Origin: Lachnospiraceae bacterium
GTDB taxonomy: Bacteria; Bacillota; Clostridia; Lachnospirales; Lachnospiraceae
NCBI GenBank assembly: GCA_017480565.1
Contig: JAFVAL010000017.1
Coordinates: 1 to 38,425, forward strand
Direction of reading: 5' to 3'
DNA length: 38,425 nucleotides
Below, piece after piece: positions 4,935 to 25,874 of the stretch; the stretch's first letter is position 1, and each line of letters starts with the position of its first letter. A program made the position numbers and the translations under genes. The notes beneath the pieces were generated by a model. It did not search any database. It saw only the letters and a list, made by a program, of their open reading frames with translations, and was not told where the DNA came from.

Positions 4935-5762
4935 TTACTCATTTTCCTCGTCAAGATTTTTCAGCAGTTCCTCTACATCTTCGTTTGTACAATTCAGTGC
5001 CTTAGTAATATCATCCATCGTCATTCCCGCTTGAATGAGTTGACTGATCACCTGCGCTTTTCCAAGGTCAATTCCATCATCTCGACCCATGCGATAGGTC
5101 TCATCCAGTTTCATTTGCCAAGTCATGTACTCAATCCTCCATTCCGTAGAACTTCTGGCATCCTCGACCTCTTTCTCCAAACGACTAGATAGCTCATCCG
5201 TCACTAAACTCGTGTTGATGTAAGTAAGCAGACTGCTTAGCTCTGCGCTTAAGCCTTCCTTGGGGCCATTTGCATTCAGAACAACCGTAATGCTCTCGTC
5301 TTTTAAATCGACTCTTTTATCTTCCTGGCACTGTCTGATAAAAGTATAAATTGGAAGATTAATCTCAAACGAGGATGGTTTTTTCTTACATACAAATATC
5401 ACGTAGCTTTTTTTCAATTCAGAATAAGTACTTCCGTTCTCAATCGAATCGAGATCTATCATGCCGTGATAGTATCTACTTCGCTTTCCAATTGATGGTT
5501 CATTCGTCGCCTGCATTTCGATATCGTAGCTTGTTTCATTTTCATCTTGCACATAGATATCCAAACGCACTCCATGATCGAATGGTGTAAGCTTCAATGA
5601 ACGTTGTGATATAACAGCTTTCAGTTTTGTGATCTTGATATTTAAAATAACTTCCAAAATTTCTTTGGTAAGATCCAAGTTTTTCTCTAGTATTTTACAA
5701 AACAGAAAGTCATCTGCAAAATCAAGATCTTTATAGTCCTTAGAATTTCCCTGTTTACTCAT
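4935..5762 (-). CDS. Rpn-type PD-(D/E)XK nuclease / putative transposase family protein
   Basis: 275-residue protein of the Rpn/YhgA-like family, annotated in many genomes as PD-(D/E)XK nuclease family transposase. E. coli Rpn relatives promote RecA-independent recombination and cleave DNA. The motif DLDFADDFLFCKIL lies at the N-terminus, and the nuclease core is visible as Asp68 (VRLDIYV) with Glu82-x-Gln84 (YDIEMQA), followed by SRYYHGMID, so the active site looks intact. The C-terminal 60 residues contain a helical segment resembling the usual tail with repeated hydrophobics. AAAGGAG (5769-5775) supports the start at 5762. The leader has alternative base-pairing segments (see 5769-5890). 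These genes are common, often multicopy and mobile, and I see no terminal repeats of a transposon. Confidence 0.85.
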   Translation of the reverse strand: MSKQGNSKDYKDLDFADDFLFCKILEKNLDLTKEILEVILNIKITKLKAVISQRSLKLTPFDHGVRLDIYVQDENETSYDIEMQATNEPSIGKRSRYYHGMIDLDSIENGSTYSELKKSYVIFVCKKKPSSFEINLPIYTFIRQCQEDKRVDLKDESITVVLNANGPKEGLSAELSSLLTYINTSLVTDELSSRLEKEVEDARSSTEWRIEYMTWQMKLDETYRMGRDDGIDLGKAQVISQLIQAGMTMDDITKALNCTNEDVEELLKNLDEENE

Positions 5763-6177: not shown

Positions 6178-7260
6178 TTATCCCATCCATCTCGCCAAAA
6201 GTGGAATCACCTGCGGCAAAATCGACACCACACTGATCACGCGAAATACATGCAAGATCATGATGTCTGCCGCATACCCCTGCGAGATGTTTAGGTCCTC
6301 CGAAAGCAGTGCAATTTCACTTGCCCCTGCGCAAGTCGTTGCAAGCATCGACTCTTTGACTTCCATCGGGCTGACTTTTCGCACCAGGAAGGAGGTCAGG
6401 AAGCAATTCGCGATAAATACAACGATGATGACAAGTGCCGGGAGAAGCAAAAAGCGAAGTTCCAGCACATCTTTCTGGCTTAAGAGTGTTCCAATATACG
6501 CACCGGAGAACAACTGCGCCGCTTTCTTAATCTCTTTGCGCATTCTGCCTTTCTGCGTGGTAAGACTTAAGGCCGCGACCGCGACCAGGGAAAACAGCAG
6601 GGTTCCCCCGGGGATCCCGATCATCTTTCCAATCCAGCCGCCAGCGAACGCTGCCGCGAGGGAGGTCAAATGTTCCACCATCGGCACTTCTTGGGTTCCT
6701 AGCTGTTTCTTTGAAGATTTTCTCTGCCCTTGCGTTCCCATCTCCTGCCCTGCTTTCGTGGCTGCTTTCGGATCCACAAAACGAATCAAGAACGGAATGA
6801 TTGCGATTCCGGTGATCAGTCTGACAAACTGCAGTACCGCAACCTTTCCGGCATCAGCACCGAGCTCTTCTGCGATCAGAGGCACATCGTTGATGCCTCC
6901 TGCGATGCCAGACGCAAGGGAAGTTGTCGGATCGAGCGGGCTGATGTGCATGATCAGAAAACCGACCACAATATCACACAGATACATGCTCACAATCACG
7001 AGCAACAATGGCAGTATCAGGTCTTTTAAGCGTTTTAGTTTCTCCCTGTTGATCGCTGCGCCTAAGAAGCCACCGGCGACGGATTGCGCGAAAAAGCGCG
7101 CTGCAAAAGGCATGTAAGCCTGGTCTGTCACCAGGTTTAGTGCGGCCGCACCGACGATTCCGCCAAGCATCATGCCGCCGGGAATCCGCAGTTTGGTAAA
7201 TAAATATCCTACGACAAATGCACACACAAGCGTAAGAATCAGCGATGTCCATTGATCCAT
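6178..7260 (-). CDS. AbrB-family membrane protein (PF05145 type, 'ammonia monooxygenase' misnomer)
   Basis: 360-residue integral membrane protein with about ten hydrophobic segments in two similar halves. Each half carries a signature seen in AbrB (PF05145) proteins: KLRIPGGMMLGGIVGAA with SGIAGGINDVPLIAEELG in the first, and IGIPGGTLLFSLVAVAA with CAGASEIALLSEDL in the second. The ATG at 7260 has GGGGGT about 9 nt upstream; the longer frame would start at a TTG inside a terminator. AbrB proteins are frequently found beside tripartite tricarboxylate transporters, as here, and a role in substrate or product movement is inferred. It is the last gene of the operon and follows an internal terminator. 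Confidence 0.82.
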   Translation of the reverse strand: MDQWTSLILTLVCAFVVGYLFTKLRIPGGMMLGGIVGAAALNLVTDQAYMPFAARFFAQSVAGGFLGAAINREKLKRLKDLILPLLLVIVSMYLCDIVVGFLIMHISPLDPTTSLASGIAGGINDVPLIAEELGADAGKVAVLQFVRLITGIAIIPFLIRFVDPKAATKAGQEMGTQGQRKSSKKQLGTQEVPMVEHLTSLAAAFAGGWIGKMIGIPGGTLLFSLVAVAALSLTTQKGRMRKEIKKAAQLFSGAYIGTLLSQKDVLELRFLLLPALVIIVVFIANCFLTSFLVRKVSPMEVKESMLATTCAGASEIALLSEDLNISQGYAADIMILHVFRVISVVSILPQVIPLLARWMG

Positions 7261-7293
7261 CGGTTCAACCCCCAGTTCTATTAAAATGCCCAA

Positions 7294-7332
7294 AAACAAG
7301 CAATCGCACCAGCGGCCTGCCGCTGGTGCGAT
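7294..7332 (-). terminator. Strong hairpin with T-rich tail between aldolase and AbrB genes
   Basis: The 14-bp perfect arms ATCGCACCAGCGGC and its complement (7303-7316 and 7319-7332) have only a 2-nt centre. On the minus strand the hairpin is followed by TGCTTGTTTTTG. It lies about 40 bp after the aldolase stop and 40 bp before the AbrB start, with no room for a separate promoter, so it probably attenuates rather than ends transcription. Confidence 0.75.
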
Positions 7333-7373
7333 GGGACAAAGAAGAGACGAAAAAAAGAGAATTTCAAAGGAAA

Positions 7374-8132
7374 TTAAAACTGATGAATCTTCTCTGAGAT
7401 TCCCTTAAGTCCCGTGCGCAGCACATCAATGTCATTTTGCATCATCATCATATCCAGACGATCCGAGAAACGTTCTAACATCTTCGGTCCGCCGTGGATG
7501 GCAAACTTCTTGCCATATTTGCGGCATGCGTCAGACGTCTTTGTGATCGCTTCGATCATCAGTGGATTCATGGTGTCACCGGGAATGCCAAGCGAGATGG
7601 ACAGGTCGTTCGGACCGATTAAGAGCACATCAATGCCCTCCACCTGTGCGATAGCCTCCACATTTTCGATGGCAGTCTTGGTCTCAATCTGCGCGATGGA
7701 AAGAACATTCGCATTGCCTTCCGCCATCGCTTCCGCATGCTTCTTGCCAGCCATATAGCCGGTAATCGCGCCGACCCCGGCAAAGCCACGGTCGCCAAGC
7801 GGCGGATACTTTGACCAGTGCACGATCTCTTCGGCCATCTCTTTGGTCTCGGTCATCGGCACCATCACACCGGTCGTCCCGGCATCCAAAAAGCGCGAGA
7901 CTTCCTTAGAGAGCATGGTTGCCCGGAAAAAGCATCCAAGATCAACCGCGCGGGCCATCTGTGCCAGATCATGTACGGTCTCGATCGTATAATTGCTGTA
8001 CTCGGTATCGAGCATCACGAAATCAAATCCGGCTTCTTTCGCCATCGGAATGATCGCAGGATTGCGGACCACACGAAGCATGGTTCCGTAAATCTTTTCG
8101 CCCGATAATAATTTCTCTTTTAAATTGGTCAT
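7374..8132 (-). CDS. HpcH/HpaI-family aldolase-like protein
   Basis: 252-residue member of the class II pyruvate aldolase family (HpcH/HpaI, GarL, RhmA), which retro-aldolises 2-keto-4-hydroxy acids to pyruvate plus an aldehyde. The ATG at 8132 has AGAGGTGAG upstream. By-eye alignment to E. coli HpcH keeps Asp42, Glu44, the Arg of FFRATM (R70 equivalent), metal ligands in IAQIETKTA and IGPNDLS, and the GDRGFAG loop. The catalytic His45 of HpcH is Tyr45 here (LDTEYSNY). That may mean altered substrate or chemistry. It lies 17 bp after the PdxA-like gene in a transporter operon, which argues for a role in degrading an imported hydroxy acid. Confidence 0.87.
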   Translation of the reverse strand: MTNLKEKLLSGEKIYGTMLRVVRNPAIIPMAKEAGFDFVMLDTEYSNYTIETVHDLAQMARAVDLGCFFRATMLSKEVSRFLDAGTTGVMVPMTETKEMAEEIVHWSKYPPLGDRGFAGVGAITGYMAGKKHAEAMAEGNANVLSIAQIETKTAIENVEAIAQVEGIDVLLIGPNDLSISLGIPGDTMNPLMIEAITKTSDACRKYGKKFAIHGGPKMLERFSDRLDMMMMQNDIDVLRTGLKGISEKIHQF

Positions 8133-8149
8133 TCGTCTCACCTCTTGCC

Positions 8150-9172
8150 TTATGCTTCTTTTGCTTTTCTGGCCACGCACATTCTAGCTGTCATGCGGAT
8201 GGCATTTTCAAATGATTTCTCAGACGCACGTCCCTGGCCTGCTCTTCCGTAAGCAGTGCCGTGACCGCAGGTCACCACCGGGTAAGGCTGACCACCGGAG
8301 ACCGTGATGCCGCCCTCAAATCCATGCAGCTTCGTCGCAATCTGTCCCTGGTCGTGATACATGGTCACAGCCACATCAAACTCACGCTTCTTGAACGCGC
8401 GGATGAAAAGAATGTCAGAAGAAATCGGTCCGATTGCATTGATGCCTCTCTCCTGCAAAATCTTGATCGCAGGCGAGATGATCTCGATTTCTTCCATGCC
8501 GCAAAGGCCATTTTCACCACAGTGCGGATTTAAGCCGGCCACGCCAAGACGAGGGTTCTCAATGCCCATATTGACAGCCGTCTCATAGCCTAACGTAGAA
8601 ATCTCGAGTACACGGTCGATGCATAAGTGATCGCTGATCTCCTTGACCGGAACGTGGCTTGTGCAGCGCACGGTCATCAGTCCATCTACCACATTGGTTT
8701 CACAGTATCTGGTCGCACCAAGCTCATGCGCAATCAGGGTATGCTCGCTCTCAAACTCGCAGCCACCTTCGATCATCGCGGCTTTGTGGTACGGTCCAAA
8801 ACAGAAGCCCTCGATCTTGCCTTCCTTGCAGAGTCTGCAGGCAAGCTTAAATGCTTCTACACCGGCAGCACCGCAGTACGGATCCGGAGCACCCATCTTG
8901 ATGCGGGCAGGATCCTGATCCTTGGTATCAAGCACCGGATATCCTTTGCTCCAGTCTGCATCCTCGACGTTCTCAATCCCGTAATACGTAGCCTCGCCGC
9001 CAAATGTCTTCAACCCTTCTGCCACGATTCTTAAGTCACCAATAAAGATCGGCCGGCAAACTTCGTCATAGACCTTTGCGACCATACACTTGGCAACAAT
9101 CTCCGGGCCAACGCCGGTTGAGTCTCCCAAAAGGACGCCAATAATCGGTTTGTAATCTGTATTTGTAGCCAT
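8150..9172 (-). CDS. PdxA-family 4-phospho-hydroxy-acid dehydrogenase (PdxA2-like)
   Basis: 340-residue NAD-dependent decarboxylating dehydrogenase of the PdxA family. The N-terminal motif is GDSTGVGPEI rather than the usual GDPAGIGPEI. Metal-site segments SEHTLIAHELG, LNPHCGENG and MYHDQGQIATKLHGF are all present, so the enzyme is likely active. No other vitamin B6 synthesis gene is nearby, and the neighbours are a transporter and an aldolase. A catabolic PdxA2-type role, such as oxidation of phosphorylated threonate-like acids, is therefore more likely than pyridoxal phosphate synthesis. However, no kinase of the DtnK/OtnK type is seen in the window. GGGAGGT about 9 nt upstream supports the start. 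Confidence 0.87.
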   Translation of the reverse strand: MATNTDYKPIIGVLLGDSTGVGPEIVAKCMVAKVYDEVCRPIFIGDLRIVAEGLKTFGGEATYYGIENVEDADWSKGYPVLDTKDQDPARIKMGAPDPYCGAAGVEAFKLACRLCKEGKIEGFCFGPYHKAAMIEGGCEFESEHTLIAHELGATRYCETNVVDGLMTVRCTSHVPVKEISDHLCIDRVLEISTLGYETAVNMGIENPRLGVAGLNPHCGENGLCGMEEIEIISPAIKILQERGINAIGPISSDILFIRAFKKREFDVAVTMYHDQGQIATKLHGFEGGITVSGGQPYPVVTCGHGTAYGRAGQGRASEKSFENAIRMTARMCVARKAKEA

Positions 9173-9197
9173 TGTAGGTTACCTCCCAAGCTGCACA

Positions 9198-9851
9198 TCA
9201 AATCTGCTGCAAATGATCGCGCAGATAAAACTGCAGAAATTGTTTTTCTTCGTTTAATTCTCTCTGCGGCAGGAACAAAAGAAGGGACCTGCCTTGATAA
9301 AAATAAATGTACTCACTGTCATCATAGACAGCCGTCAGCGTATCCCAGCCGACCGAAAGACCAATCACTCCGTAGCGGAACGCAATTCCAAATTCGTCCC
9401 ACTCTACCTTGCGCTCTCCCAGGTATCCGGTCGGATAAAAGCCCGCGGAAAGATTCTGACGAATCCCGTTCCGGATTAAGAAATCCGGCTGATACCAATA
9501 AAGAAGAGCAAACAGACTGACCACGATCTCCAGCACATAGAATACATTTAAAAATGTGCCGAACGTGACCGTCATCCCTACCTTTGCGGCAAGTCCATAG
9601 ATGCCTCCCGCAAGGCAGGTCAAAATGATGAGTAAGATGATCACCACAGCACCGCCAAGGGCATAGGCCAACGTATCATTGATGCGAAAACTCATCCGGA
9701 AGGTGGTGACATTCAGATAAATGAGTACGCCCACCGCCAAAAATCCGACGAGCTTGATCAAGCCGGCACTGCCAAGCGCATTTGCATTGGCTTTCTCCAG
9801 CGATTTTGCATCCAGATAATCCTGTTCGGTAAAATCAAATGTATACGTCAT
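9198..9851 (-). CDS. YcxB-like membrane protein of unknown function
   Basis: 217-residue protein with a cytoplasmic-type N-terminus (YTFDFTEQDYLDAKSL), three or four hydrophobic segments (about residues 30-48, 62-90, 93-118) and a C-terminal soluble domain. That domain has the pattern WDEFGIAF...SVGWDTLTAVYDDSEYIYFYQGRSLLLFLPQREL, which resembles the YcxB-like C-terminal domain. It sits in the same direction between the TctA gene (21 bp) and the PdxA-like gene (25 bp), so it is co-transcribed with them. This family is normally unconnected to transport and no function is known. Here it could be a membrane regulator or accessory of the transporter, or a passenger. GAGGG 8 nt upstream supports the start. 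Confidence 0.7.
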   Translation of the reverse strand: MTYTFDFTEQDYLDAKSLEKANANALGSAGLIKLVGFLAVGVLIYLNVTTFRMSFRINDTLAYALGGAVVIILLIILTCLAGGIYGLAAKVGMTVTFGTFLNVFYVLEIVVSLFALLYWYQPDFLIRNGIRQNLSAGFYPTGYLGERKVEWDEFGIAFRYGVIGLSVGWDTLTAVYDDSEYIYFYQGRSLLLFLPQRELNEEKQFLQFYLRDHLQQI

Positions 9852-9872
9852 CCTTTTGCCCTCAAGTTCAGA

Positions 9873-11369
9873 TTAAAAGATTGCTTTGCCCTTCCGGATG
9901 TTATTAACCAGTGCAAGTACGATCGCTCCCAGAGAGATCAGCAGAAGGATGCTGCTCAGTGCAGAGTTGGTAAATGCATGCCAGTAACTGCCCAGGGAAA
10001 TGATCAGGGCACGGCGCAGGTTTGCCTCCATGATCTCGCCGAGGACGAAACCAAGAACGACCGCCGCACTTGGCAGTTCAAATTTCCGGAAGAAGACGCC
10101 GATCAAGCCGCAGACTAATGCGACATACATGGAGAAGATTTCTCCGGAATATGCATACGTTCCGGTAAATACAAGCGCGATAACGATGGAAATCATCACC
10201 GGCTTCGGGATCAGAACGATACGCATCGCAGCCTTGATGCACAGATAGCCGACAAAGAACATAAAGAAGTTTGCGACAAACAGTGCGATAAAGATACCGT
10301 AAGGGATCTCCGGGCTGTTCTGGAAAAGAAGCGGACCGCAGTGCACATTGTGGATCGAGAACGCAGCCAGCATGATCGCCGTAGAGTTCGATCCGGGAAT
10401 ACCAAGCGCAAGAAGCGGAACCATTGCACCACCGGTCACGGCGTTGTTTGCACTCTCAGGAGCAGCAACACCACGGGGATTTCCTTCGCCGAAGCCACCT
10501 TCTTTTGCATAAATCTGCTTGACGCCGGTATAAGCAAGGAAGGATGCTGCGGTTGCACCTGCACCGGGCATAACACCGATGACGGTACCAAGAAAGGAGG
10601 TTCCGAACAGCTGTGGAATCAGACGACGAATCTCCGGCCATTTCGGGAAGCTCATATCCGGCTTTTCATCGATAAGCTTGATGTCTCCGCCGGTGCGGAT
10701 GATCTGCGCCTGATCAAACATTTCTGTGATCGCATAAAGACCCATCATCAGCGCAACCATCGAGATACCGTTGTTTAAGTCACGGATGCCCATCGTGTAA
10801 CGCTTTGCGCCGGTGAAGGAGTCAAATCCGATCGTGGACATCAGGATACCGACAAAGCCGGCCAGAATGCCCTTGAATACATTTCTCTCACCGAGGGAGC
10901 AGACCATGGACAGACCAAGGAATGCCAGTGCGAAGTACTCGGCTGGTCCGAATGCCAGTGCAACCTTTGCCAGCGGAACCGCCGTAAACAGAAGCACCAA
11001 TGCACCGAAGAGGCCACCGAATACTGAGGCGATCAGTGACGTGTACAAGCCTAGTCCAGGCTTTCCTTTCTTCATGAGAGGATAGCCATCGATGACGGTA
11101 CAGGCAGCTGCGTTGGTACCAGGTGTACCGATCAAAACTGCAGGGATCGAACCACCATACTCACCGCCGCAGTAAACGCCGGCCAGCATCATGACGGCTA
11201 CGGTATGGTTCATCGAGTAAGTAAACGGAAGTAACAGGGCCATCGCGATCGTCGCGTTGATACCCGGGATCATGCCGCCGATCGTTCCCCACGCCACGCC
11301 GAAAGCGATGAGCAGTAAGGATTGAGGCGTAAATACGGTCTTAAGACCCAATAAAATACTCTCTAACAT
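9873..11369 (-). CDS. tctA: Tripartite tricarboxylate transporter large permease
   Basis: 498-residue membrane protein of the TctA family, the large channel subunit of a binding-protein-dependent secondary transporter for citrate-like or other carboxylic acids. About eleven to twelve hydrophobic segments are visible. Family hallmarks include GTIGGMIPGINATIAMALLLPFTY near the N-terminus, YGGSIPAVLIGTPGTNAAACTVIDGYP (about residues 70-97), GVMPGAGATAASFLAY and ESANNAVTGGAMVPLLALGIPGSNSTAIML. AAAGGAG 8 nt upstream supports the ATG. It follows the TctB gene by 12 bp. The substrate is not deducible from sequence alone; the neighbouring aldolase and dehydrogenases suggest a hydroxy or keto acid. 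Confidence 0.95.
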   Translation of the reverse strand: MLESILLGLKTVFTPQSLLLIAFGVAWGTIGGMIPGINATIAMALLLPFTYSMNHTVAVMMLAGVYCGGEYGGSIPAVLIGTPGTNAAACTVIDGYPLMKKGKPGLGLYTSLIASVFGGLFGALVLLFTAVPLAKVALAFGPAEYFALAFLGLSMVCSLGERNVFKGILAGFVGILMSTIGFDSFTGAKRYTMGIRDLNNGISMVALMMGLYAITEMFDQAQIIRTGGDIKLIDEKPDMSFPKWPEIRRLIPQLFGTSFLGTVIGVMPGAGATAASFLAYTGVKQIYAKEGGFGEGNPRGVAAPESANNAVTGGAMVPLLALGIPGSNSTAIMLAAFSIHNVHCGPLLFQNSPEIPYGIFIALFVANFFMFFVGYLCIKAAMRIVLIPKPVMISIVIALVFTGTYAYSGEIFSMYVALVCGLIGVFFRKFELPSAAVVLGFVLGEIMEANLRRALIISLGSYWHAFTNSALSSILLLISLGAIVLALVNNIRKGKAIF

Positions 11370-11381
11370 CTTCTGACTCCT

Positions 11382-11867
11382 TTACAAGCGAGGCATAAAC
11401 GACTGAATGAACTTTCTCATGAAGCCCAGAGGAAGATTCACTCGAAGCAGCGAATAGAACAGTAAGAACAACACTATGGTTGCAATCACGCTCAGCAAAA
11501 TAATCTGTTTGACATTGCGGTTGCCGCAAATGAGCAGGATCGCTGCAATCAAGAGCGGAGTCGCAAGCAGATAGCCGATCACCTGCAGAAGCAGAATGTA
11601 AGCAATACAGGTTACGGTCAACAAACCAACCACACGCAGCTCCGCCACAGACATCAGCGGTTTCTCCGGTTTGGTTTTCACAAAAAATCCACCGATCGCC
11701 AGAATCAGTCCAAGAACCATGATTCCGACACTTAAGATCTTCGGAATTGCCCCCGGACCGGCCGGATCGGACGCGAAATACATCGGCCATGTGGTTGCAC
11801 TGTAGAAGCAGATGCCTCCCAGCACGATAAATCCGATGCCAAGATATCGGTCTGTACGATCAAACAC
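11382..11867 (-). CDS. tctB: Tripartite tricarboxylate transporter small permease
   Basis: 161-residue small membrane subunit of the TctABC transporter with four hydrophobic segments (near residues 5-25, 35-55, 75-105 and 120-150 by eye). The family-like motif SDPAGPGAIPKILSVGIMVLG is present. The start is a GTG at 11867, with AAGGAG (11875-11880) 7 nt upstream. An ATG 30 nt further out lies inside a strong hairpin and has no ribosome binding site, so I reject it. It lies between the binding protein (about 93 bp away, with a hairpin between) and the large permease (12 bp). Confidence 0.88.
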   Translation of the reverse strand: MFDRTDRYLGIGFIVLGGICFYSATTWPMYFASDPAGPGAIPKILSVGIMVLGLILAIGGFFVKTKPEKPLMSVAELRVVGLLTVTCIAYILLLQVIGYLLATPLLIAAILLICGNRNVKQIILLSVIATIVLFLLFYSLLRVNLPLGFMRKFIQSFMPRL

Positions 11868-11890
11868 GGTTTTTCTCCTTTTTTGGTGAT

Positions 11891-11919
11891 GTCCCACGAC
11901 AGATCATCTGCCGTGGGAC
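11891..11919 (-). promoter_or_regulatory. Stable hairpin between tctC and tctB
   Basis: GTCCCACGGCAGA and TCTGTCGTGGGAC form a 13-bp stem (one G.U) with a 3-nt loop on the minus-strand transcript. It lies 41 bp beyond the binding-protein stop and ends 11 nt before the TctB ribosome binding site. It has no T-tract after it, so it is more likely an RNA processing or 3'-end stabilising structure. Such a structure would leave more binding-protein mRNA than permease mRNA. Confidence 0.7.
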
Positions 11920-11960
11920 CATCAGTTCATACTATGCTATTTCCAGAGATGTATGAATAC

Positions 11961-12956
11961 TTAGTTGTTGACTTCGTCAAGGGAAGCCTGAAGCATTGCG
12001 GTCTGATCAGCCATCAGCTTCATTGCATCGTCGCCGTCATGCCACTCGACAAGCAGACCATTTGCCTCAACGTACTCAAGGAAGGACTCTTCTTCTAACA
12101 TTGCCTTAAGCTGCGTGCGGATTGCATCGACAACATCCTGAGGCATATCCTTCGGTCCAAGGATACCACGGATCTTGGTAACATCGATATCGCTGTGGCC
12201 AAGGTCTGCCATGGTAGGAGTATCTTCGTAACCTGCAACGGTTAACGGGTTGAAGGAAGCAAGGATCTTGACATCGCCGGACTCAGCAGCCTCGGAAAGC
12301 TCTGCGAACTCACCGATTGCAGCATCAAGGTGTCCGCCCATCAGGGAAGCTGCTGCATCGCCGCCGCCCTCGAAAGGAACTAAGTTGATGTCGATACCAA
12401 AGGACTTCTCAACCTGCATACCTGCAACGAAACCAAGCTCGCCTGCGACACCGCCTGCCCAGCTCTGGGTGCCAGGAGCGTTCTTTGCAGCCTCAACCAG
12501 CTCTTCAAAGGTGTTGTAAGGGCTCGTTCCGGGAACTGCGATAACCATCGGGTCAACCAGCAGGATTGCGATCGGTGTGAAGGACTCATAGTTGACATCC
12601 ATCTCGTTCATCAGAGGGGAAGTAAGGATCGTGGAGGAAACGCCAAGTAAGGTGTATCCATCCGGATCTGCAGCTGCGGTGTACTCCCATGCAACAGCAC
12701 CGGAACCACCAGGCATGTTGTTGACAACCCAACCCTTGTGGTTGATCTTGCCAGCATCTGCAAGGTTGGTCAGAGCCTTATCAAATGCACGGATCATGAT
12801 GTCGCCGCCGGAACCAACGGAAGAATGGTAAACTACTTCGACTTCTTTCTCAGGATAGTTCGATGCTGCATCTTTGCCGTCATCCTTGCTGCCGCATGCG
12901 GTCAGGGAACAGACCATAACGAGGACTAACAGTAATGCAAGTAATCTCTTTTTCAT
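11961..12956 (-). CDS. tctC: Tripartite tricarboxylate transporter substrate-binding lipoprotein
   Basis: 331-residue extracytoplasmic solute-binding protein of the TctC/Bug family. The signal peptide and lipobox LTAC put the lipidated Cys at residue 21. Family motifs follow: HSSVGSGGDIMIRAFD near the mature N-terminus, VVNNMPGGSGAVAWEYTAAADPDGYTLL, and FEGGGDAAASLMGGHLDAAIGE. These form the carboxylate-binding beta-zipper loops in Bug proteins. AAAGGAG about 8 nt before the ATG supports the start. It lies 57 bp downstream of the dehydrogenase-like gene and upstream of tctB and tctA, giving the standard C-B-A order. The bound acid is unknown. Confidence 0.94.
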   Translation of the reverse strand: MKKRLLALLLVLVMVCSLTACGSKDDGKDAASNYPEKEVEVVYHSSVGSGGDIMIRAFDKALTNLADAGKINHKGWVVNNMPGGSGAVAWEYTAAADPDGYTLLGVSSTILTSPLMNEMDVNYESFTPIAILLVDPMVIAVPGTSPYNTFEELVEAAKNAPGTQSWAGGVAGELGFVAGMQVEKSFGIDINLVPFEGGGDAAASLMGGHLDAAIGEFAELSEAAESGDVKILASFNPLTVAGYEDTPTMADLGHSDIDVTKIRGILGPKDMPQDVVDAIRTQLKAMLEEESFLEYVEANGLLVEWHDGDDAMKLMADQTAMLQASLDEVNN

Positions 12957-13013
12957 TGTTTCTCTCCTTTTTCTTTTTGCTTTTGTTTTATTACTCGTTC
13001 CATTGAGTACAAC

Positions 13014-14084
13014 TTAGAACTGACTGCAGATGTATGCGCCCATCTCTTTGGTGCCTGCAGTCCCTCCCAGATCGGGAGTTAACACCTTTCCTTCGGTAAT
13101 CACACGGTACATGACATCCTCGATGTCCTTTGCGGCCTGAATCGCAGCCGCATCGTGCTTTTGATTGCCGAGCCAGGAAAGCATCATTTGCGCCGACATG
13201 ATCATCGCGTAAGGATTGGCGATGTTCTTACCGGCAATGTCCGGAGCAGAACCGTGCGTGGCCTGCGCCATAACGTATTTCGGTCCCACGGAAAGTCCCG
13301 GTGCAAGGCCGAGGCCGCCGATCAGACCGGCTGCTTCGTCCGACAAGATATCGCCAAACATGTTCGTTGCAACGACCACGTCGTATCTGGTCGGATCCAT
13401 CAACATCTTCATGGCAAATGTATCCACCACACAGGTTTCAAACTCAATGTCAGGATAGTCTGCCGCAACTTCTCTGCACGCATCTAAGAATAAGGTGCAG
13501 CCAAGCTTGAAGACAGTGTTTTTGTGGATTGCCGTAACCTTCTTAAGACCATTTCTCTGTCTTGCAAGTTCAAAGGAAGTTCTCGCGGCCATCTGTGAAT
13601 TTCTTCTGGTGATGACTCGAAGCGATAGCGCCATGTCAGGGGTCGGCATGCAGTCGCTCGTTCCTTTGAACATGTTGCGGTCCGGCTGGAAGCCTTCATT
13701 GTTCTCTCTGACGATGATCAGATCCGTCTTATCGTTGATACATTTGATGCCAGGATAAGCCTTGGCAGGACGGATGTTGCTGACCAGGTCAAAGTCTCTG
13801 CGAAGAATCGGATGCGGATTGATACAGTTCGGATCCTTCGGATACGCCATGTGTCCGATCGGGCCTAAAATCCAGCCATCCAGATCAAAGAGGGTGTTAT
13901 ACGTACTCTCCGGCAGAGAGTGTCCATTTTCCAAAAAGGACTTGTAGCCGATCGGAAGCGGTACCCAGTCGATATTGATCTCGGGGTACTTCGCGACCGC
14001 AGCCTTTAAGACGTCCACGGCAACCGGTACGATCTCAAGACCGATATCATCGCCGAGGAGGATTCCCAGACGATACTCAGCCAT
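13014..14084 (-). CDS. Isocitrate/isopropylmalate dehydrogenase-like protein
   Basis: 356-residue member of the beta-decarboxylating dehydrogenase family (isopropylmalate, isocitrate, homoisocitrate and tartrate dehydrogenases). Retained features are LRRDFDLVSNIRPAKAYPG with its substrate-binding arginines, the catalytic-type Lys188 (HKNT), Asp221, Asp245 and Asp249 (NMFGDILSDEAAGLIGG) and the dinucleotide loop HGSAPDIAGKNIANP. The entry loop is GDDIGLE rather than GDGIGPE. At the usual ENTEGEY position the protein reads ENNEGFQPD, so the catalytic Tyr appears replaced by Gln. It therefore may use a different substrate or mechanism. It overlaps the upstream gene by 8 bp and precedes tctC. Confidence 0.86.
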   Translation of the reverse strand: MAEYRLGILLGDDIGLEIVPVAVDVLKAAVAKYPEINIDWVPLPIGYKSFLENGHSLPESTYNTLFDLDGWILGPIGHMAYPKDPNCINPHPILRRDFDLVSNIRPAKAYPGIKCINDKTDLIIVRENNEGFQPDRNMFKGTSDCMPTPDMALSLRVITRRNSQMAARTSFELARQRNGLKKVTAIHKNTVFKLGCTLFLDACREVAADYPDIEFETCVVDTFAMKMLMDPTRYDVVVATNMFGDILSDEAAGLIGGLGLAPGLSVGPKYVMAQATHGSAPDIAGKNIANPYAMIMSAQMMLSWLGNQKHDAAAIQAAKDIEDVMYRVITEGKVLTPDLGGTAGTKEMGAYICSQF

Positions 14085-14721
14085 TTGCTTTCGCCCTCTT
14101 CTTCTCTACATCTTCTGCAATCAGGTCTGCGCAGCGCACCTGGTTAAAGATGCCGCAGTAGCAGAAGGTGGAAAGACGGTCTGCGCCTTCCTGAGGGGTC
14201 ATCTTGCCTTTGTCAACCTGGTCGATGACATACTCAACGAATTTCGGCGGAATCATGTGATGACCGCACATGGTCGTGATTGCCAGGGTATCTTCATCCG
14301 GAAGGATTCCCTTGTTGCCCCAGACACCCAGAGAATAGTTGATGGAGTGCGGGGTAACGCCAGCTTCGTGGCAGCAAGGAATGACTTCTGAGAACACGCC
14401 GGTGATGATGCAGGACTGATCGATATCAGCTTCCTTGACTTCCTTTAAGAAGCCAACTACCTGCTCAGGCTTTGTAAATACGCCGCGGATACGGGACTTG
14501 TCGGTGATGTTATCCTTGATCTCCTGCGCATCAAAGCGGGTGATCGGTCCGGTCTTGACATCGCCCCAGTTCTCGGAACCCTGACGCTCAGCCGCGTTGA
14601 TGTAAACCATCATCTTCGGCTTGATGTTTTTATCATTGACATTCTTGGTCTGGTACATGAACCAGACAAAATCTTTCTTCTGCGACTCAATATCGCCGCT
14701 GCGGTGTAATGAATGAGACAT
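14077..14721 (-). CDS. Cys/His-rich protein of unknown function
   Basis: I do not recognise this 214-residue protein. It is soluble, with no signal or membrane segment. A basic, polar N-terminal half contains KPKMMVYINAAERQG. The C-terminal half holds a striking set of potential metal or Fe-S ligands: Cys104, Cys116-Cys117-His118, Cys152-Gly-His154-His155, Cys187-x-Cys189 and Cys197. It starts 58 bp after the 4Fe-4S protein gene and overlaps the dehydrogenase-like gene by 8 bp, so the three are translated together. An enzyme subunit receiving electrons from the neighbouring Fe-S protein is plausible inference. AAAGGAAG upstream supports the ATG. Confidence 0.75.
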   Translation of the reverse strand: MSHSLHRSGDIESQKKDFVWFMYQTKNVNDKNIKPKMMVYINAAERQGSENWGDVKTGPITRFDAQEIKDNITDKSRIRGVFTKPEQVVGFLKEVKEADIDQSCIITGVFSEVIPCCHEAGVTPHSINYSLGVWGNKGILPDEDTLAITTMCGHHMIPPKFVEYVIDQVDKGKMTPQEGADRLSTFCYCGIFNQVRCADLIAEDVEKKRAKANG

Positions 14722-14779
14722 ACGCTTCTTCCTTTCTTTTCAACAATGCTTATCTGTGTTCTGGCACAATCTCTTTTGA

Positions 14780-15511
14780 TTAGTCAAGGCAAAGAGGTTT
14801 GCCAAGGCCGACATTGACTTTCCCACGATAAGGTCTCGGAATGCCAAGCTCATCTAACTTCGCAAGGTTTTCATTGTAGCCGTTTTCATCGACACGCATG
14901 ATCAGTCCGAGGGAGAACACGGTCTCGATCTCGCCGGAAACCTTCTTGAGCGCTTTCATTACATTCGGGAAATCTTCATCTGCACAGTTTCCTTCGATGA
15001 TGACGGAAAGGGTGCGATAGTTTAAAACTTCATCTCTTAACTTACCGGTCTCAAGATCGGTCATCAGCGCTGCAAGCGGTGTGCAATCCGGTCCCTCAAG
15101 CTTTACGCCGGCAGCTGCGATCGCCATTGCGATCTTCTCCACATCATAGAAACGGCATCCAGCACCAGGACGGCCGACATCGATACAGAAACCGACTCTG
15201 CCCTTTTTCACACGGCCGGTGACATCGTTGGTCTTGACTTCCTCGGTACCACGTCCGGTTACGCCGGTCACACCGTGATTCTCGCAAGGGTCACTCATCG
15301 TGTGGCAGAACTGCTGATAATAATCCATCTCTACAGGCTCGATGGCATCACGGAAACAGACATGCTGTCTCATACAGACATAGCAATCAACACATTCATT
15401 CGATGCGATGTAACATTTTCTCTTCTCTGCATCATATTTGATTGCATCCACAGAACAGTACTTCTGGCACTGTCTGCAGCCGACACATTTTTCGCTATTA
15501 ATACGCGCCAT
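14780..15511 (-). CDS. 4Fe-4S ferredoxin-domain protein with unknown C-terminal domain
   Basis: 243-residue protein, first gene of the ten-gene operon. The N-terminal 60 residues hold two cluster motifs: Cys9/12/15/19 (CxxCxxCxxxC, followed by Ser instead of Pro) and Cys40/43/46/52 (CxxCxxCx5C, an unusual spacing). Further cysteines at 69 and 76 precede a roughly 130-residue domain starting VGFCIDVGRPGAGCRFYDVEKIAMAI. That domain ends with a beta-alpha-beta-like segment (LSVIIEG, VFSLGLIMRV). I cannot name this domain. The gene probably supplies electrons to, or forms a complex with, the Cys/His-rich product of the next gene. AGGAGGAAG upstream gives a strong start. A LysR-type regulator is divergent 202 bp away. 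Confidence 0.8.
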   Translation of the reverse strand: MARINSEKCVGCRQCQKYCSVDAIKYDAEKRKCYIASNECVDCYVCMRQHVCFRDAIEPVEMDYYQQFCHTMSDPCENHGVTGVTGRGTEEVKTNDVTGRVKKGRVGFCIDVGRPGAGCRFYDVEKIAMAIAAAGVKLEGPDCTPLAALMTDLETGKLRDEVLNYRTLSVIIEGNCADEDFPNVMKALKKVSGEIETVFSLGLIMRVDENGYNENLAKLDELGIPRPYRGKVNVGLGKPLCLD

Positions 15512-15600
15512 GTATCTTCCTCCTAAACTTTCATCCTACGGGTTTACAAAAAAGACGTGTGACTCAATATTCAAAAAATATTTGCTTTTTTGTTGAGTTC

Positions 15601-15630
15601 ATTGTACAATATTCCCATAAGGCGTGTAAA
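15601..15630 (-). promoter_or_regulatory. Promoter of the ten-gene transporter/catabolic operon
   Basis: On the minus strand TTTACA (15625-15630) and TACAAT (15601-15606) are separated by 18 bp, about 90 bp before the first start codon. The -10 lies in a perfect palindrome ATTGTACAAT (15601-15610), so the same bases could serve a plus-strand promoter for the regulator (TTGCTT, 17 bp, TACAAT). Confidence 0.55.
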
Positions 15631-15639
15631 GTTTCAGAA

Positions 15640-15659
15640 AGTTATACTGAAATATAACT
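15640..15659. promoter_or_regulatory. Candidate LysR-type operator
   Basis: AGTTATA (15640-15646) and TATAACT (15653-15659) form a perfect 7-6-7 dyad of the kind LysR regulators use. It is centred about 56 bp upstream of the expected start of the operon promoter, where an activator's recognition site normally sits, and about 60 bp before the regulator's own ATG. Confidence 0.6.
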
Positions 15660-15713
15660 CAAAATTATATTTGGGTTTTGTTTTATGAAAAATATGGAAA
15701 AAGGGTGATACAA

Positions 15714-16637
15714 ATGATTGAATGTAAAGATGTGGACTATGTTCTGGCCATCGCCAAGCACGGAAGTATCTCGAAAGCTTCCGAAGAGCTCTATATTTCA
15801 CAGCCCGCGCTGACGAAATATTTAAAAAATCTGGAGGAGCGTCTTGGGATCGAGCTCTTCTATCACGACCGCAGGCCACTGACGCTAACGCCCGTCGGCG
15901 AGCTCTATGTCAACTACTCCAAACAGATTGCTGCGATCAAGACGAATCTGGAAAAAGAATTGATGATTTATAAAAATGAAGACGTGCCGGAGCTTCACAT
16001 CGGCTTTTCCTGCACGGAGATTCGCCCGTACATTTTCTCCGCCGTGCAGAAAATGCGTCAGAACAGTCCACATGTGAATCTGGTTCTGACGGAGCTTCGC
16101 TCCCAGGAGATCGAACGGAGGCTGAAGATCGGGCAGTTAGACATCGGCTTTATCACGCTTCCGAAGCACGATCCGGACATCGACACGACCCTGATCATGG
16201 AAGAAGACATTTTGCTCGGAATTCCGGCCGATCACCCGCTCGTCTCCATGGGAACGCCTTATCTCTCTAACGGTTATCCCTTGATGGATCTTAGCTACTT
16301 TGCGCACGACTCCTTTGTCCTGCGCGAGAAGGGCACCCGTTTCAGTGATCATGTCGCGCAGCTTTTTGAGCAGGTCGATTACACGCCAAACATCGCTGTC
16401 ACTGCCCGCAACAACTTAAGTGCGATCGAGTTTGCCGAGATCTGGGGACTTTGTGTGCTCACGACCCGCGCTTTTATCCGCAACCTGAAAGATCCGAATT
16501 CGATGCGCTTCTTCGTGGCAGGCCCGGTGCCGCAGCAGCTCTCCATCGGGGTAGCGCATTATCACGGCAAGCCGCTTTCTGTCACGGCAAATGAGCTCAT
16601 TTCCTTAATCCATGAAGAGATTTTAAACGCAAAGTAA
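15714..16637 (+). CDS. LysR-family transcriptional regulator
   Basis: 307-residue LysR-type regulator. The winged helix-turn-helix occupies the first 60 residues (VLAIAKHGSISKASEELYISQPALTKYLKNLEERLG). An effector-binding domain of periplasmic-binding-protein fold follows (ELHIGFSCTEIRPYIF, QLDIGFITLP, EEDILLGIPADHPLV). The ATG at 15714 has AAGGGTG about 7 nt upstream; the longer frame lacks one. It is divergent from the ten-gene operon with a dyad in between, so it most likely controls that operon and responds to its organic-acid substrate. Its stop is only 2 bp from the stop of the convergent aldolase-like gene. Confidence 0.93.
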   Translation: MIECKDVDYVLAIAKHGSISKASEELYISQPALTKYLKNLEERLGIELFYHDRRPLTLTPVGELYVNYSKQIAAIKTNLEKELMIYKNEDVPELHIGFSCTEIRPYIFSAVQKMRQNSPHVNLVLTELRSQEIERRLKIGQLDIGFITLPKHDPDIDTTLIMEEDILLGIPADHPLVSMGTPYLSNGYPLMDLSYFAHDSFVLREKGTRFSDHVAQLFEQVDYTPNIAVTARNNLSAIEFAEIWGLCVLTTRAFIRNLKDPNSMRFFVAGPVPQQLSIGVAHYHGKPLSVTANELISLIHEEILNAK

Positions 16638-16639
16638 TC

Positions 16640-17575
16640 TTATCTTCTTTGCAGCAAATGCACCGCAAAGCCGCCAATCTCTTCCTGCAGATAGATGTTT
16701 GAGAGTCTGCCGCCCAAAAACTTCTCTGTCTCATGACGAAGTCCCACACCCTTTTTCTCAAGCCAGAGGGCGGCTCTCTCCGCACTGTTGGTACGCACAC
16801 CGATGTGCCCGTGGGTGCCTAACTGCATAAACTTCATCACTTCGATCTGGGACGTCGCGTAGATCGAATTGCCGCGCGGATTGTCTGTTGCTGGGAAGGA
16901 AAATAAGTCTCCAAAACGCCCAGTCACAGTTCTTGTCTCTGATAAATCCTCACAATTGATCCCCACGTGCGCAAAAGAAAAACCCATCACCGCATTGTGA
17001 AGCGCAAGGCACTGCGCGGCGACCTGCTCTCTTTGGTGGGTTCGGATCCAGTCAGTCTCGACCGCCGCCACCGAGGGCAAGGAGATCGCAAGTCCGATCT
17101 GCTCCGGATCTGTCATCTCTCCGATTACAAGGAACCCCGCAGGCATATATCTCTCATAGATCTTTAATTCTTCCTGAAGGGGCTTTTCCCATGTAAAAAT
17201 GAGCCTCACGGCATCCGCACCCGCGTCTCTGGCAGAAACTGCTTCTTGTAGCGTTCTGCAAGTGACGATCGTTTCGATGCCTCTCTCTTTCGCATCTGTA
17301 ATCCAACCCGCTTTCGCATAAGAAAAACTCACAAAGTCTGCATCGAGATCCAGCACGCGAGCAAACTCTTCGTCGGTGCGAATTCCGACCACACCCACGA
17401 CCATCTCCGGCACATGTTCACGAATTGCAGAAAGTGCTAAAAGCCCTTCCCCGCGAGGATTGATCCCCAGCGTCCCGATCTCACCGGCAAGCATCGCCTC
17501 CGCGACATCCACCGCGTTGGCCGCATTTTCCATATAAAGGCGAGGAATCGCGCCTGTCTGTGCAAATTTTTGCAT
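16640..17575 (-). CDS. KDPG-aldolase-like domain fused to VOC/glyoxalase-like domain
   Basis: 311-residue two-domain protein. Residues 1 to about 195 form a TIM-barrel-like repeat pattern similar to KDPG/KHG aldolase (Eda): TGAIPRLY, AMLAGEIGTLGINPRG, AIREHVPEMVVGVVGI, DAVRLIFTW. By eye the Eda catalytic Glu45 is replaced by Gly37 and the Schiff-base Lys133 by Arg124, while the phosphate/carboxylate-binding Arg is kept (Arg41). Residues about 200-311 look like a VOC metal enzyme domain (FAHVGINCEDL, THGHIGVRTNSAERA, NIYLQEEIGGFAV) with His203, His257 and Glu298/299 as possible ligands. It has its own ribosome binding site (GGAGG) and lies next to the LysR gene, so a link to the operon is plausible but not shown. 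Confidence 0.75.
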   Translation of the reverse strand: MQKFAQTGAIPRLYMENAANAVDVAEAMLAGEIGTLGINPRGEGLLALSAIREHVPEMVVGVVGIRTDEEFARVLDLDADFVSFSYAKAGWITDAKERGIETIVTCRTLQEAVSARDAGADAVRLIFTWEKPLQEELKIYERYMPAGFLVIGEMTDPEQIGLAISLPSVAAVETDWIRTHQREQVAAQCLALHNAVMGFSFAHVGINCEDLSETRTVTGRFGDLFSFPATDNPRGNSIYATSQIEVMKFMQLGTHGHIGVRTNSAERAALWLEKKGVGLRHETEKFLGGRLSNIYLQEEIGGFAVHLLQRR

Positions 17576-23718: not shown

Positions 23719-24859
23719 ACTGCACTCCTTCGGTCACGTCCTGAATCACTGCCTCTGCACGCCCATCGGCAAATGTCATCGTAACCTTCTCATCTTTCAC
23801 AAGCTTCGTGACGCTGTCGATTCCCTTTCCCTGCGCATCCGCTATATACGCATAACCGCCCGAGAGCTTCTTTAGCGGTGACAGCCCGTCAAGCTTGCCC
23901 GCCGCGATCTGCACGCGGTGTCTGTTTCGTAAAATCTGGTCATGAAGCAACCTTGCAAATAAATCCTCTTTGTCCATCAGCCGCTGACGAAACTCCCGCA
24001 GGCGATACACCGGGGACGCATAGGTCAGCCGCTTTTTATACTCTTCTAACTTTCGGTCAATCAGATCGATCGGATACACCGCAAGCTCTGCCGCCGCAGA
24101 AGGCGTTGGCGCTCTCATATCAGCCACAAAATCCGCAATCGTTACATCCACTTCATGTCCAACCGCCGATATAATCGGTGTTCTACAATTGTAGATTGCA
24201 TATGCGGTTTCCTCTTCATTAAACGCCCACAGATCTTCGATCGAACCACCGCCGCGACCGACGATAATCACATCCAGTCCCATCGAATCAAGCCTTCGAA
24301 TGCCCTTCGCAATCGACGCCGCCGCGCCTTCGCCCTGGACCCTTGCCGGACACAAGATCAGCTGCACATAGGGATTGCGCCTCGCGGCAATCTGTCTGAT
24401 ATCCTGAATCGCTGCGCCGGTCGAAGCCGTCACAACACCGATCTTCCAGGAAAGCTCCGGAATCTGCTTCTTATGCGACTCATCAAAGAGTCCGCGTTCC
24501 GCGAGATCTTTCTTTAACTGTTCAAACTTCAGATACAAGCTTCCCGTACCATCCGGCAGGATCTCTCTCGCATACAGCTGATACCGCCCGGACGCCTCAT
24601 AGACCCCGATGCTGCCGGAGACGACCACCTTGTCCCCGTCCTTCATTCGAAAGGCCAGGCCATTTCTTGCCGAGGCAAACATCACGCACGCAAGCTGTCC
24701 GCCAAAATCCTTCAGCGTAAAGTAGATATGCCCGCTGGAATGATACTTGAGGTTCGATACCTCGCCCCGGATCTGCAGTCTCTGCAGCGCATAATCTCTC
24801 TGCAGCAAATCCTTGATGTACGCATTGATCTGAGTAACCGAATATACCTGCCCGCTCAT
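23711..24859 (-). CDS. xseA: Exodeoxyribonuclease VII large subunit
   Basis: 382-residue catalytic subunit, somewhat shorter than the usual 400-450. An N-terminal OB fold (about residues 1-100, LQIRGEVSNLKYHSSGHIYFTLKD) is followed by the catalytic domain with STGAAIQDI, GRGGGSIEDLWAFNEE and VGHEVDVTIADFVADMRAPTPSAAAE. The shorter length reflects a short coiled-coil region between about residues 265 and 330. It overlaps nusB by 4 bp (ATGA) and xseB by 8 bp. No frameshift is apparent. Confidence 0.95.
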   Translation of the reverse strand: MSGQVYSVTQINAYIKDLLQRDYALQRLQIRGEVSNLKYHSSGHIYFTLKDFGGQLACVMFASARNGLAFRMKDGDKVVVSGSIGVYEASGRYQLYAREILPDGTGSLYLKFEQLKKDLAERGLFDESHKKQIPELSWKIGVVTASTGAAIQDIRQIAARRNPYVQLILCPARVQGEGAAASIAKGIRRLDSMGLDVIIVGRGGGSIEDLWAFNEEETAYAIYNCRTPIISAVGHEVDVTIADFVADMRAPTPSAAAELAVYPIDLIDRKLEEYKKRLTYASPVYRLREFRQRLMDKEDLFARLLHDQILRNRHRVQIAAGKLDGLSPLKKLSGGYAYIADAQGKGIDSVTKLVKDEKVTMTFADGRAEAVIQDVTEGVQFG

Positions 24860-25272
24860 TTGGTCGCAAGCTTTGCCAGAATTCCGTTGACAAAGCTGGG
24901 GGACGCATCCCCGCCGTAGCGCTTCGCAAGCTCCACCGCCTCGTTGATCGCAACGCCCGTCGGGATCTTCTCATCGCAGAGCAGTTCAAACGCAGCCAGA
25001 CGAAGGATCGCCAGATCCACCTTGCTCATGCGTGCTAACTTCCAGCCGATCGAAACCTCCTCGATCTGCGGATCTAACTTCGGAATCTCCGCCTCGACCT
25101 TCGCAAACCGCTCAGAGATCTCCGCAAGCTCTTCCTCCGTCAACCCTTCCGTCTGATCCGCAAATTCATAGTAGAGGCTTCTGACATCCTCCTGTTCCTC
25201 TGCCGGATGAAAATCCTGCATAAAAATCAGCCGAAACAAATGCTCTCTTAAATCGCGTCTTGTCATCGCCAT
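24856..25272 (-). CDS. nusB: Transcription antitermination factor NusB
   Basis: 138-residue helical RNA-binding protein that joins NusE/S10 on boxA RNA during rRNA transcription. Typical parts are RRDLREHLFRLIFM near the N-terminus and LRLAAFELLCDEKIPTGVAINEAVELAKRYGGDASPSFVNGILAKL at the C-terminus. It starts 80 bp after asp23, beyond a terminator-like hairpin, and its stop overlaps xseA. An ATG two codons later is an equally possible start. Confidence 0.95.
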   Translation of the reverse strand: MAMTRRDLREHLFRLIFMQDFHPAEEQEDVRSLYYEFADQTEGLTEEELAEISERFAKVEAEIPKLDPQIEEVSIGWKLARMSKVDLAILRLAAFELLCDEKIPTGVAINEAVELAKRYGGDASPSFVNGILAKLATK

Positions 25273-25709: not shown

Positions 25710-25761
25710 AGCATAAACCTCTTTCTCTTCGGAAACCTAACAATCCTTGGAATCTATCCTC

Positions 25762-25790
25762 ATTATAGCCAGAAATGCATTCATTTGCAA
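25762..25790 (-). promoter_or_regulatory. Promoter of asp23 and downstream operon
   Basis: On the minus strand TTGCAA (25785-25790) and TATAAT (25762-25767) are 17 bp apart, about 53 bp before the asp23 start codon. Confidence 0.8.
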
Positions 25791-25797
25791 CAAGAAA

Positions 25798-25820
25798 CAG
25801 TGGACGAATGGCCTCCACTG
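25798..25820. repeat. Short hairpin in the asp23-aroE divergent region
   Basis: CAGTGGA (25798-25804) and TCCACTG (25814-25820) form a 7-bp stem around a 9-nt loop. It lies just upstream of the asp23 -35 box and in the aroE leader. It may be an operator or a leader hairpin; there is no T-tract on the plus strand. Confidence 0.45.
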
Positions 25821-25874
25821 GGGTAAACTAAGAAAAGTTTCATAATTCCATTTGCAATTCCTTAAGGAGACACC

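Follow-up and report, generated by a model that had tools for sequence, protein, structure and literature searches.

Two adjacent genes, designated FES and CYS, stand at the head of an operon on a 38,425-nt contig of a Lachnospiraceae bacterium (assembly GCA_017480565.1, contig JAFVAL010000017.1; C6 of a 2.78-Mb genome), and this whole contig is referred to here as the window. Judged from their sequences, the two genes are the most novel part of the locus, being undescribed and lacking a convincing match in Pfam, NCBIfam or the PDB beyond the ferredoxin motifs of FES. The genes that follow them encode a tripartite tricarboxylate transporter (TctCBA), two dehydrogenase homologues and an aldolase-like protein. 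A first-pass annotation had presented the whole set as a candidate undescribed catabolic system. The observation is sound, but the claimed novelty was misplaced: the genuine lead lies in the FES-CYS pair, which that annotation had correctly listed as a two-gene Fe-S/Cys-rich module without giving it special weight. It is proposed here, tentatively and at somewhat less than an even chance, that FES and CYS are two subunits of an undescribed family of Fe-S oxidoreductases for small (hydroxy)carboxylates. This proposal draws on the near-obligate pairing of the two genes, their conserved residues, fusions of FES to a reductase, and linkage to redox and carboxylate genes. By title or start of abstract, no paper describing the gene combination, its parts or the FES-CYS pair was found among the matches listed from open-licence PMC text.

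A scan of a collection holding one genome per species (84,980 species) returned 257 CYS relatives, the best 80 of which were examined. They came from genomes labelled as Clostridia, other Bacillota, Desulfobacterota, Synergistota, Chloroflexi, Bathyarchaeota and Borrarchaeum, and from metagenome-assembled genomes (MAGs) labelled Zoogloeaceae and 'Nanoarchaeota'. In the last of these (locus L048), FES-CYS is followed by a radical-SAM/B12-binding protein, and the MAG may owe this label to a binning error. Cultured species that carry the pair include Anaerosolibacter carboniphilus, Desulfosarcina widdelii and Desulfotruncus arcticus. With genes called by script, FES was located directly upstream of CYS on the same strand for 100 of the 106 CYS copies outside the window. 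The remaining six comprised three at a contig edge, two placed otherwise by the gene calls, that of L049 being over-long, and one CYS alone. The module as defined here, FES then CYS with the conserved Cys/His set, is also found in the window. In the phylum of the window, 398 genomes were searched: 26 contained the FES C-terminal domain, and CYS was found in those 26 and, as a 34-residue fragment, in one more. In the phylum to which Desulfosarcina widdelii belongs, the two were present in the identical 25 of 247 genomes. Copy numbers of FES and CYS, counted as lower bounds, were equal in 18 of 20 genomes, which had been picked by hand among those of the 80 loci so as to cover different lineages. 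Finally, the distances between FES C-terminal domains mirrored those between CYS proteins (r=0.93, 71 pairs), the largest value in 2000 permutations being 0.19. The pairing of FES and CYS is thus near-obligate. One genome assembled as a single contig of 2.9 Mb (G311) carries nine CYS genes in the stretches examined (L098-L104), and these lie beside differing genes, among them aldehyde:ferredoxin oxidoreductase (several), zinc alcohol dehydrogenase, TctCBA and LarA.

The FES half of the pair is of a familiar type. Ferredoxin domains matched FES only over its first ~60-70 residues, and the C-terminal domain of the window protein matched 0 Pfam families at E<=1. With E up to 0.05 allowed, neither Pfam nor NCBIfam gave a match for the window CYS. 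Across 81 CYS members the family matches were weak and mostly scattered, the commonest being SHOCT-like in 10 (best 1e-4) and FeoC in five. No convincing match to CYS was found in the PDB, where the best hit (E 0.0098) was chance-like and involved a 24-residue stretch of XPA. The possibility that FES and CYS are homologues of one another was rejected (hhalign probability 0.7%). Residue conservation was read from two alignments. That of CYS held 80 of 82 sequences plus the window (L075 and L084 excluded), after L020 (for its length), near-duplicates above 88% identity and eight sequences that lacked the exact N-terminal motif had been left out. That of FES held 80 of 81 plus the window (one L055 copy excluded), after removal of sequences longer than 320 aa, fusions included, one without the motif, five by length and near-duplicates above 85%; a smaller alignment was made of every second row of it. 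In all 81 rows of FES, the eight cluster Cys, R87, E91, K93, R114, E173 and K231 were invariant. In all 81 rows of CYS, the same was true of H3, R7, C152, H154, C187, C189, N193 and R196, and H6 was present in 80. Taken together, the conserved residues of FES and CYS look like a split active site. The CYS tree divides into clades of 36 and 45 rows with a support of 100 (quick method), and close relatives in it retain different neighbours.

In three loci (L059, 7864-9987; L087, 7387-9513; L089, 713-2842), FES is found in one chain with Pyr_redox_2 and Fer4_20 domains, that is, with a GltD-like pyridine-nucleotide reductase. Other long FES candidates, in G718, G727, G563 and G458, were rejected as fusions because their extra length, inspected by eye, was an upstream open frame without a recognisable partner. 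Two further loci (L119, 983-3004; L121, 2240-3951, minus strand) have a divergent FES with an apparent twin-arginine leader, recognised by eye, next to a CYS that starts MSHTSQRR. Such a leader would fit a folded, cofactor-bearing protein, and this pair is probably an exported version.

The genes surrounding the pair were counted in 85 same-strand runs, the window included, with clusters named from one representative each. The commonest neighbour was TctA, present in 37 of the 85 runs and in 43 of the 80 loci; in the genomes searched, likewise chosen by hand, it occurred at 8 of 20 loci against 0.49 expected. A CooF-like ferredoxin was found in 13 runs. An isocitrate/isopropylmalate-dehydrogenase-like protein (IsoDH), a truncated protein resembling carbon monoxide dehydrogenase (CODH), a flavoprotein oxidoreductase and a DUF1932 dehydrogenase were found in 11 runs each. 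Less frequent were HpcH (seven runs), aconitase-like LeuC/LeuD (six), aldehyde:ferredoxin oxidoreductase (six), PdxA (five), Ldh2 (five) and LarA (four), and representatives of further clusters corresponded to PrpD, DHDPS and RraA. In L022, L058, L076, L079, L080, L083 and other loci, the CODH-like protein (~490 aa) lies near the CooF-like protein and the flavoprotein, beside FES-CYS; its representative resembles CODH over the first ~85 residues only. This linkage, the reductase fusion and the six runs with aldehyde:ferredoxin oxidoreductase would also be expected if FES-CYS were an electron-transfer or confurcation adaptor that serves separate dehydrogenases and has no substrate site of its own. 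Such an adaptor is unlikely. Runs made up of TctCBA and FES-CYS alone, with or without a GntR regulator (L029, L055, L075; L051 adds one unnamed gene), offer it no adjacent client enzyme, and the conserved His, Cys and Arg of CYS together with the Arg, Lys and Glu of the FES C-terminal domain resemble an active site. The small size of the Cys/His-rich partner and the variety of neighbours could alternatively point to a pair that matures metal sites or clusters, or senses redox state, for the enzymes of the operon. This explanation appears improbable, as no client enzyme is common to the 85 runs (the maximum being TctA, in 37), and a GntR gene is found in 17 of them and a sigma-54-type activator in four.

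A third alternative came from plasmids. Relatives of the window IsoDH with 53-56% identity were found on plasmids of Rhizobium jaguaris, Variovorax, Rhizobium sp. BG4, Pacificitalea, Phyllobacterium and Neorhizobium. The motif NNEGFQPDRN was read in those of Pacificitalea, Phyllobacterium, Neorhizobium and Variovorax, and a Priestia relative (43%) has NTEGFY. On the Neorhizobium, Phyllobacterium and Pacificitalea plasmids, IsoDH lies beside MmgE/PrpD, an AbrB-family protein, TctA, TctB, tartrate dehydrogenase and an EH-type PdxA. TctC is annotated in the Phyllobacterium and Pacificitalea clusters, and TctC, MmgE/PrpD and IsoDH occur together in Variovorax. CYS had no match in the plasmid collection. 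The hosts of these plasmids (Neorhizobium, Phyllobacterium and Pacificitalea) are aerobes. Therefore, the combination of TctA/TctB, AbrB, IsoDH of the NNEGFQPDRN type and EH-type PdxA, which had been taken to be unprecedented, recurs on alphaproteobacterial plasmids, and TctCBA with AbrB, IsoDH and PdxA is a recurring theme of transporter-linked carboxylate catabolism. The plasmid operons share with the window the transporter type, the AbrB family, the IsoDH subfamily and the EH-type PdxA; they differ in carrying MmgE/PrpD and tartrate dehydrogenase where the window has FES-CYS and an HpcH aldolase. The dense clusters of MmgE/PrpD, Tct, AbrB, IsoDH, tartrate dehydrogenase and PdxA on these plasmids (L111, L112, L113) possibly represent a carboxylate pathway of their own.

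That MmgE/PrpD holds the place of FES-CYS in plasmid operons that share AbrB, TctA/TctB and the type of IsoDH with the window favours the idea of an Fe-S hydro-lyase, isomerase or epimerase, in other words an anaerobe counterpart of the MmgE/PrpD or aconitase-like step, with no net redox change. The genome that contains the window yielded a single match to the aconitase family, with no LeuC besides it, and the characterised MmgE/PrpD members include an (S)-(R)-methylsuccinate isomerase (PMC12290011, excerpt). On balance an enzyme of this kind is not likely. PrpD co-runs with FES-CYS in L030, L038, L042 and L050, and LeuC/LeuD do so in L014, L016, L026, L027 and L034, so that FES-CYS is no simple substitute for them; and the ferredoxin motifs and reductase fusions indicate electron flow.

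If FES-CYS is an oxidoreductase, the two [4Fe-4S] clusters of FES would be its electron path, and the carboxylate would probably bind to the C-terminal domain of FES, with its conserved Arg, Lys and Glu. At the catalytic interface, CYS would contribute a metal or cluster site formed by H3, H6, C152, H154, C187 and C189. Ferredoxin would accept or donate the electrons, with linked flavoproteins connecting to NAD(P). The substrate of the window operon would be imported by TctCBA under LysR control, undergo the redox step on FES-CYS, be oxidised or decarboxylated with NAD by IsoDH and the PdxA-like enzyme, and be cleaved by the HpcH-like aldolase; this order is guessed from the chemistry of the families. 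As substrate, a hydroxylated di- or tricarboxylate would fit the TctC receptor, IsoDH, and the aconitase- or PrpD-type enzymes of sister operons.

Several observations weigh against the oxidoreductase proposal and the evidence assembled for it. The low-potential clusters of ferredoxins are poorly suited to the oxidation of alpha-hydroxyacids, so that the direction of the reaction may be reductive. The window contains no dedicated redox partner, and the neighbour enzymes are too varied to point to one substrate. The FES profile was built solely from FES proteins beside CYS, which favours linked finds, and a limited number of candidates was scored per genome, which makes the copy counts minimum values. 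Part of the mirror correlation comes from shared ancestry, and where a locus has several pairs, the closest foreign CYS and the closest foreign FES came from one pair in only 17 of 25 cases. The residue counts are biased, since the collection was scanned by MxHxLHR- or TMCGH-like patterns and rows were chosen by N-terminal or Cys motifs; the divergent CYS proteins found later by profile, which begin MSHTSQRR, keep H3, R7 and the Cys/His set and lack L5 and H6, so these two residues are not universal in CYS.

The conservation of the window operon was followed in two close relatives, a goat abomasum MAG labelled Lachnospiraceae (L010) and a sheep rumen MAG labelled Oscillospiraceae (L011). In both, the order FES-CYS-IsoDH-TctCBA is kept together with the LysR gene and the KDPG-aldolase-like gene. 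YcxB, PdxA, HpcH and AbrB are also kept in L011, and the L010 contig stops within the YcxB-like gene. Identity to the window (L010 and L011, respectively) was highest for CYS among the operon proteins in both relatives (94 and 93%), followed by FES (94 and 86%), IsoDH (93 and 86%), TctA (92 and 89%), TctC (88 and 75%), LysR (81 and 66%) and TctB (80 and 68%). PdxA and HpcH each reached 75% and AbrB 61% in L011. The YcxB-like protein showed 56% in L010, over the part present, and 38% in L011, and the N-terminal part of the KDPG-like protein 44 and 33%. By this measure constraint is strongest on the FES-CYS-IsoDH-TctCBA core, and the YcxB-like and KDPG-like proteins look peripheral. A single-sequence search found CYS in none of nine same-family genomes of the class sample and in four of 291 genomes of the class, the window's own included.

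The first-pass annotation had regarded the whole gene set as defining a single undescribed pathway and had looked to conservation of the neighbours together in related genomes. The complete set is indeed kept in L011, but it was seen in L011 alone, so the outcome that the annotation had named as refuting its view applies in part. Elsewhere the set disperses while FES and CYS stay paired, and a large part of it is also found on plasmids that have no CYS; a pathway defined by the entire set is therefore very unlikely. What holds is the simpler claim of a regulated, co-conserved operon for carboxylate uptake and catabolism. The LysR gene is divergent from the operon, as had been described, and a perfect LysR-type palindrome is located between LysR and FES in the window, L010 and L011. 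Allowing at most one mismatch, GTTATA-N6-TATAAC was found once in the window against 0.02 expected. Of 126 loci, L010, L011 and L081 have it, as do L004 and L090, both of them the window itself. A TTTACA/TACAAT-like pair follows the palindrome at the same place in the alignment of the window, L010 and L011; sigma-70 promoter matches in the region were not above those in shuffled sequence (10 found, mean 12.6). The palindrome is a probable LysR site, and its conservation with the promoter-like pair in this interval supports a LysR-controlled operon.

Table 1. Features of the FES-CYS operon and its flanks in the window
Feature	Coordinates	Strand	Description or basis
FES	15511-14780	-	Two [4Fe-4S] ferredoxin motifs and a ~180-aa C-terminal domain (GRGTEExKTND, GRP)
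CYS	14721-14077	-	214 aa; undescribed family; conserved Cys/His
IsoDH (isocitrate/isopropylmalate-dehydrogenase-like, NNEGFQPDRN subfamily, Gln for Tyr)	14084-13014	-	PF00180
TctC solute receptor	12956-11961	-	PF03401
TctB small membrane subunit	11897-11382	-	PF07331
TctA permease	11369-9873	-	PF01970
YcxB-like membrane protein, fast evolving	9851-9198	-	Pfam and identity to L010/L011
PdxA-like dehydrogenase, xEHxxxAH subfamily	9172-8150	-	PF04166
HpcH/HpaI-like aldolase, Tyr replacing conserved His	8180-7374	-	PF03328
Terminator-like hairpin between HpcH and AbrB	7332-7303	-	13 pairs, then T-rich DNA
AbrB-family (duplicated) membrane protein	7299-6178	-	PF05145
Palindrome GTTATA-N6-TATAAC, LysR/FES interval	15641-15658	.	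Present also in L010 and L011; probable LysR site
LysR regulator, divergent	15678-16637	+	Likely ATG start 15714
KDPG-aldolase-like domain (degenerate) and probable VOC-like C-terminal half, fast evolving	17575-16640	-	Pfam, alignment to 1eua

The gene families named at first sight (TctCBA, two dehydrogenase homologues, an HpcH-like protein and the Fe-S/Cys-rich pair) were borne out (Table 1), the three components of the tripartite tricarboxylate transporter being encoded by consecutive genes. The nine minus-strand genes from FES to the HpcH-like gene (15511-7374) are spaced -31 to +63 bases apart. AbrB had been counted in the same operon; it lies beyond a strong terminator-like hairpin and may be expressed separately. 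Its product matches the membrane-duplication model, and a role as transcription regulator was rejected on that ground. A PDDEXK_2 nuclease-family protein (4935-5762) adjoins the AbrB end of the operon, and a large Fe-S flavoprotein of 931 aa, in which Fer4_20, Pyr_redox_2 and Fer4 domains were recognised, is encoded outside it (33471-36266).

Three enzyme homologues had also been said to lack the standard catalytic residue. The Tyr of NTEGxY, the GHTE motif, the His after DxE and the Glu and Lys of KDPG/KHG aldolases have catalytic or metal-binding roles. IsoDH carries Gln in place of the Tyr (NNEGFQ); it matches PF00180 at 4e-79 and retains the Lys and metal Asp motifs, and it scores under the cut-off of every one of the 16 NCBIfam models matched. 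NNEGFQ was read in the window and in 10 of 12 IsoDH relatives from the loci, L027 being truncated at the site and L038 differing. The PdxA-like protein has Glu where GHTE proteins carry His (SEHT) and scores 228 bits against an equivalog cut-off of 290; the motif is SEH in L011, L017 and L071 and GAVD in L063 and L066. The HpcH-like protein has Tyr (DTEY) where 3qz6 carries His and scores 109.9 bits against an HpaI cut-off of 368.8. Among 10 proteins compared, this Tyr is limited to the window and L011, and L028 and L041 retain the His. The exchanges are thus real, but those of IsoDH and PdxA recur in relatives and on plasmids and mark conserved subfamilies; decay of these two enzymes was rejected on the same grounds. 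The KDPG-like domain, unlike IsoDH and PdxA, looks degenerate: it has Gly where 1eua carries Glu, the Lys position falling outside the alignment. The KDPG-aldolase-like/VOC fusion that had been described is partly upheld. Its KDPG half scores 20.1 bits in the window, under the Pfam cut-off of 27.8, and exceeds it in L010 (47.0) and L011 (95.2); its VOC half, which Pfam fails to recognise in the window and recognises only weakly in L010 and L011, is only probable.

Comparison with known systems sets the locus apart at several points. The LutABC/LldEFG system for L-lactate is alike in using several small Fe-S proteins and no flavoprotein on a hydroxyacid, but LUD domains (the subject of PMC3924224) and CCG domains were found in neither FES, its C-terminal domain, nor any of the 81 CYS proteins. 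The DUF1537/PdxA2 pathway for four-carbon acid sugars has a PdxA-like dehydrogenase in common with the operon, which differs in having no kinase and a replaced GHTE motif. As the first-pass annotation had stated, no sugar-acid kinase was matched among the window open reading frames scanned with Pfam, a scan that did not take in short frames such as 24856-25272 and 25737-26189. The four-carbon acid-sugar phosphate pathway was rejected on the lack of a kinase in the operon, and a role of the PdxA-like gene in vitamin B6 synthesis on the operon context and the lost GHTE. An ordinary acid-sugar pair is present elsewhere in the same genome, as a 738-aa fusion of a kinase-type protein (SBD_N and NBD_C) with PdxA on contig C70 (L117, 262-2478). 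PF03328 is shared with the HpaI/GarL class II aldolases, from which the window protein is separated by its score under the cut-off and its Tyr for His. PF00180 and the Lys and Asp motifs are shared with the NAD-isocitrate, homoisocitrate, isopropylmalate and tartrate dehydrogenases, from which IsoDH departs in the Gln for Tyr.

The exchanged-residue subfamilies of IsoDH and PdxA constitute a second testable puzzle. The first is the pair itself, which is carried by 6.5% (26/398) and 10% (25/247) of the genomes sampled in two phyla and yet has no name in Pfam or NCBIfam. In its boldest form, which we regard as possible but rather doubtful, FES-CYS would be an unknown class of two-subunit Fe-S enzymes in Bacillota, Desulfobacterota, Synergistota, Chloroflexi and some archaea, where one new low-potential chemistry would be applied to many hydroxycarboxylates and the neighbouring genes would only adapt the enzyme to each substrate. 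In conclusion, if FES-CYS is a hydroxycarboxylate oxidoreductase, its operons would give clues to the substrates through their TctC receptors, and the enzyme would fill steps that models of carbon flow now lack for anaerobic guts and sediments.

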